Of a stretch of DNA of 64,000 nucleotides, positions 19,681 through 22,218 are shown in pieces. Made by a program: the position numbers and the translations under genes. Each line of letters opens with the position of its first letter. The first letter of the stretch is position 1. The notes below the pieces were generated by a model that saw only the letters and a list, made by a program, of their open reading frames with translations, did not search any database and had not been told where the DNA came from. This DNA is from Brachyspira sp. SAP_772 (GTDB lineage Bacteria > Spirochaetota > Brachyspiria > Brachyspirales > Brachyspiraceae): NCBI RefSeq assembly GCF_009755885.1, contig NZ_VYIX01000002.1, positions 351,957 through 415,956 on the forward strand, given 5' to 3'.

Positions 19681-22218
19681 TTAAGCAAATATATCAGTAA
19701 GCCTAAAATCACAAATCATCAAAATAAGTAATGTATAAATAAATCTTTCTGATACTTTTTCATTATTTTCGTTATAAAATTTAATGTTTATTTTTACTTT
19801 GTCTTTGTAATCAATTTTATTATTGGCATTTATTTTTATTTCAAAAGAATCTCCATTTTTTAAATTATAACTTTCAACTACACCAAAATCTAAATAATTA
19901 GGACTCATTAAATACCTAGCACCAAAAGCCTTAAAACTGCCATAAGATATTTCAATGTTTTGTAATTTGTTTATTTCATTTTCCAAATTATTTTTATCTA
20001 ATTTTATTATAGTTAATTGATTTATTGGCTGACTAAGTTCATAATCTTCTAATTGATGCTTCCATTTATTTATAGTTTCATCGTCCATTTCTATAGGACT
20101 TGCTAAACTTATAAAGCTGTCATTATCAATTTTAACTTCTTCATCTTCGCAATTTGAATAGCTTCCGTCACCTGCATATCTGAATGTAGTTAAAAACAAA
20201 TTATCTTTATCATATAAATTCCATATAAGTGAAGAAGAAAATTTATTCATTATAGGGTTGTTAATAAATACTTCTTTAAAAAAACTATAATTATATTTCT
20301 TTTCATACATTAATGATTTTGTTAACTTTAAATATAATTTCTTTATAATGTCAGGTATTTCTTTTTTTATATGCTTAATTTCTTCTTTTATACTTCCTTC
20401 TAAATTTTTAGGAGTAGTTTTTAATTCTTTATTATTTTTTATATCAAACAGCTTTACAGAATAATCATTATTTAAAATCAATTTATAATCATCATTAATA
20501 ATTTTTTCACCTCTTGAATCGAGTCCAAAATTTGAACTAAACTTCAATTCTAAATCATCAATATCAAGTCCTATTTCTTTTGATATTTTATTATTTATTA
20601 AATAAAAAGCCTCTTCTTTCAATTCTGATTTTTTAGTTTTTGAATAAATATCATATAATAACTCAATACTATATTCTGTTGTTTTTACTGATGACAATAT
20701 TATTAAGAAGAAATTAGAGTCTTTCTCTTTTTTGTATATTTCTCTTAAAGCTTCATCGCCTCCATACAAACTATAAACAATGGCAGAAGTTTCTTTATGT
20801 GTTCCTTTATAAATATTTTTAGCAAAAGTCAAAAAACTTTCTCTATCAAGTAAATTAATAATAGAGTCTATTTCAATAAAATTATAAATATCTCTTTTTA
20901 ATTCTAAATATTTTAAGTATATATATTTTATAATTTTTTCATCAACTTCTCTTGATTTATCTTTTATTAATACATTACAATTTTTTATATAAGAAATTTT
21001 CTTCTCATCTTTTTTGCTTAACTTAATACTTTCTTCATATTTTTCAATAGTGTCAAATATTTCATAATTAACAGCTTCTTTCAAATCATCATAATAAATA
21101 TTTTCTAATTTTCTTTTAGCTGATTGAACTTTTTTATTTTTTATTTCTGAAGCTATTTTATGAATCTCTTTTATATTTTCTTCTATTTTTTTTATTATAA
21201 TTTTATTATCATTATCAAAAGCATATAAATATAAAATCCATTTCAAACTTAAATTATTAATAACCACATCATCAAAAATATTATCAATTATAACTTTATC
21301 ATTAAGCTCCCAAGTATCAAGAGAAGCATATTCTTTGAAACTGCTATTATAAAACATAGCAACCATAGCATTAACGTTGCTTACATTCCATTTATCTAAA
21401 GGCCTATTAAAACTTTTAGCTTTCCAAAACATAGAATTCATACTTTTTACATTTGAAGTATCCCATTTATCTAAATCCTGATTGAAACTTTTGCAGCCTT
21501 CAAACATATTACTCATATTTTCAACCTTTGATATATCCCAATCATTTAAAGGCTGATTAAAGTTATGACAATCTTTAAACATAGCTGTTAAATGTCTTAC
21601 CTTTGACATATTCCATTTATTTAAAGGCTGATTAAAATTGATACAATTTTCAAACATTTCTATTACTATTGCCAAACTAGATGTATTCCAATTATTTAAA
21701 TTTTGATTAAAATTAGTACAACCCTTAAATATTCCATTCATATATTCAATATTAGAAGTATCCCATTTATCCAAAGGCTGATTAAATTCCTTACAGCCCT
21801 CAAACATATAAATTGCATTTTTTACTTTCGACATATTAAAATGATTTACATTCTGGTTAAATTTTTCAGCATATCTAAACATACATGATGAATTTTCTAA
21901 ATTAGAAGTTTTCCATTTATCCAAAGGCTGATTAAAATTTATGCAGTTATAAAATAAAAGTTCCATATTCTTAACATTAGAAACATTCCATTTACTTATA
22001 TCTTCATTAAAACTATAACAATTATAAAACATTCCTCTCATACTGGTAACGTTATTAACATTCCAATTTCCTATACCTGAAAAATCTTTCCTTAAACTTT
22101 CATGAAAAAGATTGCTCATATCTGTGATTAAACTTGTATCAATATCGCCTAAATAAATACTTTCATCTTCTACTAATTTTTGTAATTCTTCTTTAGTTTG
22201 AGGCTTGTATTTATGCAT
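19681..22218 (-). CDS. DUF285 (BspA-like) repeat - DUF4132 fusion protein
   Basis: An 845-residue protein. Residues about 15-310 are ten 25-residue DUF285 repeats of the type FNQPLDKWDTSNVxxMxxMF. Residues about 320-520 are a helical Lys/Glu-rich region. Residues about 555-760 match the DUF4132 pattern: a GLDSRGEKIINDDYKL strand region, then FFKEVFINNPIMNKFSSSLIW, FRYAGDGSY and WKHQLEDYELSQPINQL. DUF4132 is the YehI-type domain encoded with MoxR, VWA, DUF5682 and SWIM proteins in E. coli and others. There is no signal peptide, so the protein is probably cytoplasmic, unlike classic surface BspA proteins. AGGA precedes the ATG. Two DUF285 paralogues lie just upstream on the same strand. Function is unknown; the repeats may provide target binding. 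Confidence 0.82.
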   Translation of the reverse strand: MHKYKPQTKEELQKLVEDESIYLGDIDTSLITDMSNLFHESLRKDFSGIGNWNVNNVTSMRGMFYNCYSFNEDISKWNVSNVKNMELLFYNCINFNQPLDKWKTSNLENSSCMFRYAEKFNQNVNHFNMSKVKNAIYMFEGCKEFNQPLDKWDTSNIEYMNGIFKGCTNFNQNLNNWNTSSLAIVIEMFENCINFNQPLNKWNMSKVRHLTAMFKDCHNFNQPLNDWDISKVENMSNMFEGCKSFNQDLDKWDTSNVKSMNSMFWKAKSFNRPLDKWNVSNVNAMVAMFYNSSFKEYASLDTWELNDKVIIDNIFDDVVINNLSLKWILYLYAFDNDNKIIIKKIEENIKEIHKIASEIKNKKVQSAKRKLENIYYDDLKEAVNYEIFDTIEKYEESIKLSKKDEKKISYIKNCNVLIKDKSREVDEKIIKYIYLKYLELKRDIYNFIEIDSIINLLDRESFLTFAKNIYKGTHKETSAIVYSLYGGDEALREIYKKEKDSNFFLIILSSVKTTEYSIELLYDIYSKTKKSELKEEAFYLINNKISKEIGLDIDDLELKFSSNFGLDSRGEKIINDDYKLILNNDYSVKLFDIKNNKELKTTPKNLEGSIKEEIKHIKKEIPDIIKKLYLKLTKSLMYEKKYNYSFFKEVFINNPIMNKFSSSLIWNLYDKDNLFLTTFRYAGDGSYSNCEDEEVKIDNDSFISLASPIEMDDETINKWKHQLEDYELSQPINQLTIIKLDKNNLENEINKLQNIEISYGSFKAFGARYLMSPNYLDFGVVESYNLKNGDSFEIKINANNKIDYKDKVKINIKFYNENNEKVSERFIYTLLILMICDFRLTDIFA

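Follow-up and report, generated by a model that had tools for sequence, protein, structure and literature searches.

Most of the DUF285/PARCEL repeat proteins that have been investigated are surface lipoproteins, and the "untargeted" open reading frames of category H in the PARCEL survey were left open as pseudogenes, cytoplasmic proteins or artefacts (PMC2996958). What, then, does an array of such repeats do on a protein that lacks a recognisable signal peptide and ends in DUF4132, the domain of Escherichia coli YehI? The question is raised by a gene of a gut spirochaete, located in a 64,000-nucleotide stretch of the Brachyspira sp. SAP_772 genome (contig NZ_VYIX01000002.1, positions 351,957 to 415,956), hereafter the window. 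A sequence-only reading had proposed that ten 25-residue DUF285 repeats run through a helical region into a DUF4132-like C-terminus, and that the product is a cytoplasmic recognition module attached to a MoxR-VWA machinery. The 845-codon frame was found exactly at 19681-22218 on the minus strand, the plus strand there being full of stops. The features of the window on which the argument draws are listed below, G000 being the source genome and C3 one of its contigs.

19681-22218, minus strand: DUF285-DUF4132 fusion gene, 845 amino acids, ATG start at 22218
22081-22218, minus strand: conserved N-cap, residues 1-46 (KYKPxTKEEL...DIDTSLITDMSxLF), common to all 43 translated fusions
21271-22080, minus strand: DUF285/PARCEL array, ten 25-residue units and one degenerate unit, residues ~47-316, modelled as an LRR-type solenoid
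21259-21270, minus strand: recombination breakpoint, residues 317-320; upstream part like the orthologues of other species, downstream part like the paralogue G000:C3:441110-443503
19684-21261, minus strand: complete DUF4132 module, residues 320-845, with a helical front part and then an alpha/beta C-terminal part
20011-20430, minus strand: Pfam match to DUF4132 (PF13569), residues 597-736, 81.8 bits against a cut-off of 27
22551-24293, minus strand: neighbouring DUF285-only gene, 580 amino acids, two arrays with one N-cap each
24297-25775, minus strand: neighbouring DUF285-only gene, 492 amino acids, terminal helices resembling the first helices of the DUF4132 module
12328-13476, plus strand: YehP-like VWA (CoxE-type) protein, 33% identity over 386 amino acids, E 9e-87
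33739-36102, minus strand: YehM-like DUF5682 protein, single copy, E 4e-43

The DUF285 array and the DUF4132 module

A conserved tryptophan at residues 52, 77, 102, 152, 177, 202, 227, 252 and 277, replaced by phenylalanine at 127, marks ten strict 25-residue units, and a degenerate eleventh unit follows at about residue 303. The DNA of the gene shows the same period (75 nt), and both Pfam DUF285 (PF03382, E=5e-93) and the NCBIfam PARCEL repeat TIGR02167 (E=3e-29) match the protein, so that the ten repeats proposed earlier stand. A palindrome check of the repeat DNA found one 14-nt inverted pair only, at the settings used.

AlphaFold2, run with 17 sequences, modelled the whole fusion protein with confidence, at a pLDDT of 91.3 (mostly 92-98 in the array) and a pTM of 0.64. 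Foldseek found no significant match to this model in the PDB. Residues 1-374 were then compared by VIA-align, as a second look at Foldseek's candidates, and gave Z scores of 13-20 to LRR chains, among them the RPP1 LRR (19.8), SHOC2 (16.4), InlJ (15.5) and Treponema TpLRR (13.4); in the model, the array is an LRR-type curved solenoid. Across 322 repeats, variation is nearly absent from scaffold positions F1, W8 and F20 but high (3.1-3.8 bits) at positions 17, 18, 21, 22, 24 and 25, which is the pattern expected of a binding face. Arrays of orthologous genes compared between species have dN/dS values mostly of 0.1-0.25 and are thus mostly under purifying selection; three pairs of one group gave 1.1-2.0, at a dS of 0.012 that leaves too few changes to weigh. 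A hypervariable receptor caught in an arms race is in general unsupported by such low values, and selection and repeat pattern together fit neither a fast arms race nor dead repeats.

The C-terminal half was identified as DUF4132 by Pfam (PF13569, E=7.7e-23, gathering score 27) and by BLASTP with E. coli YehI, which reaches the fusion protein at 3e-19 and so carries the homology beyond the profile match; the same-frame DUF4132 similarity read from the letters is therefore upheld. The Pfam match spans profile positions 2-141 of 179, and the divergent last part aligns across Brachyspira paralogues. Alignment with these paralogues and with YehI delimits a homologous module of about residues 320-845, longer than the Pfam match, in which residues nearly invariant over all aligned DUF4132 subfamilies, YehI included, are kept, such as W666, R680, W719 and Q734 of the fusion. 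Modelled alone, the module reached a pLDDT of 89.4 and a pTM of 0.78, and its front part, from about residue 320, is helical, in agreement with the helical region noticed earlier. The search for a known fold gave little: no Foldseek hit in the PDB fell under an E of 0.4, PDB sequences searched with a profile gave nothing convincing, and ARM/HEAT-like VIA-align matches to the front part, at Z of about 7, are not significant for helical repeats. The last ~95 residues show a weak likeness to YugN-like proteins at a borderline Z of 8.4 (3.2 A over 94 residues).

A genus-wide family with mosaic members

What had been viewed as one gene is one member of a genus-wide family. DUF4132 occurs in 25 of 26 Brachyspira genomes, in up to 17 copies, and fusion-type modules, defined by a tblastn-like E below 1e-60 to the module of the window, number 127 in 23 of the 26, with as many as 11 in one genome and some decayed copies. 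The source genome has eleven DUF4132 genes, namely five fusions and six array-less forms, four long and YehI-like (~1060-1155 amino acids) and two short (~460). All 43 fusions that were translated carry regular DUF285 units, from 2 to 11, in the same domain order. Two further genomes (G001 and G019) have the array-less forms and the Yeh-type machinery described below but no fusion, which is thus not a required part. We regard it as very probable that DUF285-DUF4132 fusions form a real, functional family in Brachyspira.

Fusions often stand in tandem (loci L030, L037, L038 and L046), with DUF285-only proteins interspersed among them, several of which stop just past the first helices of the DUF4132 module. 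Two DUF285-only genes (22551-24293 and 24297-25775) lie directly upstream of the fusion in the window, and the class ending after the first module helices is found in other species too, e.g. at L030:9588-10775, L037:6369-7556 and L038:2058-3221. Proteins with such module-like terminal helices might serve the fusions as decoys or partners. In genome G016, another fusion locus (L064:8133-12392) includes a stretch of N as well as split frames, and its 1419-amino acid frame is therefore probably an assembly artefact.

One dominant fusion clade was recovered with a support of 98/98; the divergent fusions L042:105-2381 and L070:270-2225 may stand apart from it and need not share its origin. Outside the genus, DUF285 was joined to DUF4132 in none of the nine other DUF4132 genomes among the Spirochaetota sampled, and plasmid records held partial YehI-type matches only. 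These two samples, rather than all bacteria, define the absence; a contig search gave no fewer than 17 loci, and the matches listed were all of Brachyspira. Of the non-Brachyspira spirochaete proteins scanned, three of 1650-1860 amino acids join DUF5724, DUF4132 and DUF7737 (L055:8029-13614, L056:5442-10685 and L058:8350-13308), whereas two short proteins pair DUF4132 with DUF7737.

The two parts of the window gene have different closest relatives. Compared with the paralogue C3:441110-443503 of the same genome, the module is 90% identical and the array 54%, whereas orthologues of the window gene from three further genomes (L029, L031 and L033) have 88-89% identity to its array and 75-77% to its module. 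Array and module trees conflict, each rejecting the clade of the other part with AU p-values of 1.1e-6 (module) and 1.2e-57 (array). Since it was the identities that pointed to the clades tested, these values are optimistic, but the likelihood gaps of 230 and 280 are large. A maximum chi-square breakpoint falls between residues 317 and 320, at the array/module junction, and was reached by none of 2000 permutations. The gene is therefore a mosaic, its array orthologous to arrays of other species and its module matching a paralogue of the same genome, and the same discordance was seen in several other pairs. We read it as within-genome conversion of modules that left the arrays distinct, although array exchange would look alike. 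Low dN/dS values and repeats with fixed scaffold and variable positions fit stable, distinct specificities carried on a shared output module.

A scattered, single-copy Yeh-type machinery

In E. coli, yehI (DUF4132), yehL (MoxR), yehM, yehP (VWA) and yehQ (SWIM) are neighbours. Single-copy homologues of all four partners are encoded in the source genome: YehP and YehM in the window, YehL at G000:C3:422281-423363 (47% identity over 359 amino acids, E 5e-115) and YehQ, weakly, at C2:80138 (E 2e-4), with a relative in locus L091 that has a clear SWIM domain. Across the genus there is one YehL in 25 of 26 genomes, 46-48% identical to that of E. coli over its full length, one DUF5682 locus in all 26, and one SWIM/YehQ-like protein in 23, with weak scores.

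The homologues are spread across contigs C2 and C3, and no DUF4132 gene of the source genome has one of them as a direct neighbour. In the window, the fusion is separated by 6 kb from the VWA gene and by 11 kb from the DUF5682 gene, with unrelated genes in between. Around the other ten DUF4132 genes, in loci of ~20 kb, BLASTP with the E. coli Yeh proteins found no MoxR, VWA, DUF5682 or SWIM gene. The evidence for a connection is indirect. Among 393 Spirochaetota genomes, DUF4132 and DUF5682 each occur in 8 of 168 genera and share 6 (hypergeometric p 3e-8); with the Brachyspira family left out, 3 are shared of 5 and 5 (p 1e-4). These p-values ignore phylogeny, and one of the eight DUF5682 genera is counted on a sub-threshold match. 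In the spirochaete of locus L061, DUF5682, VWA, SWIM-type and DUF4132 genes stand in one cluster, as in E. coli. The attachment to a MoxR-VWA machinery suggested earlier thus has indirect support, in that the genome encodes single-copy homologues of YehL, YehM, YehP and YehQ and the genera largely coincide; physical linkage of the genes does not bear it out.

MoxR subfamilies, of which YehL is one, usually have a VWA partner and chaperone-like roles (PMC3893208). We found no paper on the function of YehI, YehL or YehP, and a docking role for DUF4132 would therefore rest on analogy with other MoxR-VWA pairs. An anti-phage defence system was considered and set aside: PADLOC gave no match for the fusion, VWA or DUF5682 proteins and one negligible match for YehL, and no relatives occurred in phage records or viral contigs.

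Comparison with known systems places the family further. The E. coli cluster shares the homologous DUF4132 protein and all four partners; its YehI, however, has 1210 amino acids without DUF285 and is encoded in a cluster, whereas the Brachyspira genes are scattered and include eleven DUF4132 copies, five of them with arrays. Leptospira LIC_12901 (PMC11674859), the one described LRR-DUF4132 precedent that we found in the literature searched, likewise joins spirochaete LRR-type repeats to DUF4132, with no signal peptide reported, but it carries canonical LRRs and a WGR domain in 1616 amino acids, where the Brachyspira fusion has DUF285/PARCEL repeats, no WGR and a large family. MoxR-vWA ternary systems (PMC7159879) follow the same general plan of MoxR, VWA and a third, variable protein; their third components (VMAP, iSTAND, FtsH and beta-propeller) are other proteins, and that paper mentions neither WGR, MolR, BspA nor Brachyspira. 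No paper in the literature searched was found to describe DUF285 together with DUF4132. The fusions are a real and conserved, apparently undescribed form of a known domain family, and their link to a MoxR-VWA machine, itself uncharacterised, is indirect.

Candidate roles of the fusion proteins

With up to 11 fusions per genome against one machine, the fusions look like interchangeable adaptors. On the reading that we tentatively put first, at a probability of roughly 0.45, they would be cytoplasmic adaptors or sensors, each with its own array, served by one ATPase engine. The N-terminal solenoid would bind a specific protein ligand, and the C-terminal DUF4132 module would be the common docking and output part, engaged by the single-copy chaperone pair of YehL (a MoxR AAA+ ATPase) and YehP (VWA) together with YehM (DUF5682) and YehQ (SWIM). 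Upon ligand binding, DUF4132 would recruit YehL-YehP or be remodelled by it, and the target would be remodelled or released, or a signal about it passed on. What we infer in this reading is that the proteins are cytoplasmic, that they bind a ligand and dock to YehL-YehP, and what their output is.

It is somewhat unlikely that the fusion is instead a stand-alone LRR-type scaffold or sensor whose DUF4132 provides its own output, YehL-YehP working only with the long array-less YehI-like proteins. The four long and two short array-less proteins of the source genome could be the real partners, G001 and G019 keep them and the machinery without a fusion, and the fusions have no gene linkage to that machinery. 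The nearly invariant DUF4132 residues kept in the fusion module speak against such a division, since a shared interaction is the simpler view. We consider unlikely a bacterial system of intracellular surveillance, built like a set of LRR receptors on one AAA+ engine, in which each genome would have several stable LRR specificities, the DUF4132 docking module would be kept homogenised, and one YehL-YehP MoxR-VWA machine would act once an array has bound its target.

A BspA-like protein that is secreted or displayed on the surface and acts on the animal host would suit a host-associated genus in which B. pilosicoli BspA-like genes have been listed as surface proteins (PMC2897892), as well as the surface lipoproteins that dominate the DUF285 literature, yet it is improbable on the N-termini. 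By hydropathy, a simple test that is not SignalP, neither a signal peptide nor a transmembrane segment was found in the fusion protein and 42 relatives, and the signal peptide or lipoprotein signal by which BspA-like surface proteins are recognised is thus not seen in any of the 43. The 12-residue N-terminal maximum was 1.66 (0.85 in the window protein), where two exported proteins encoded in the window reach ~3, and the N-terminus is a conserved charged cap throughout. The homologue of the fused domain, YehI, is moreover encoded beside a cytosolic-type AAA+ ATPase. The fusion proteins are probably cytoplasmic; of the "cytoplasmic recognition module" proposed earlier, the missing export signal and the LRR-like solenoid are found, and location and recognition follow from them by inference.

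That the array is a selfish passenger, left on DUF4132 without joint function by PARCEL tracts spreading between genes, is highly improbable: the PARCEL literature describes these repeats as mobilised and spreading horizontally (PMC2996958), the fusions vary from 2 to 11 repeats and some copies are decayed, but the N-cap and domain order are constant in the 43 translated fusions, arrays are conserved between species at dN/dS mostly of 0.1-0.25, and one clade (98/98) dominates.

DUF4132 and the Yeh MoxR-VWA cluster range from E. coli to spirochaetes. By keeping one machine and multiplying its presumed client with recognition repeats, Brachyspira may offer a handle on the role of this machine. 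Like the category H PARCEL frames, the fusions have DUF285 arrays without an export signal; unlike them, their arrays are joined to DUF4132, conserved between species and mostly under purifying selection. Arrays of this kind need not be pseudogenes or artefacts and can be conserved components of proteins that are probably intracellular (cf. PMC2996958).

Other features of the window deserve mention. Two near-identical intergenic elements of ~150 bp lie upstream of the VWA gene (11590-11740 and 12080-12240); no Rfam family reaches threshold on them, and a DNA search gave 56 matching places in the genome, which marks the element as repetitive. Three proteins consist largely of TPR-like repeats (2548-3624, 52167-54620 and 57158-59506), another expanded repeat type in this genome. 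Finally, the C-terminus of the NAD-dependent epimerase-type protein at 17625-19181 weakly matches a treble-clef zinc finger (DUF4379, E 0.001), which makes an unusual combination.
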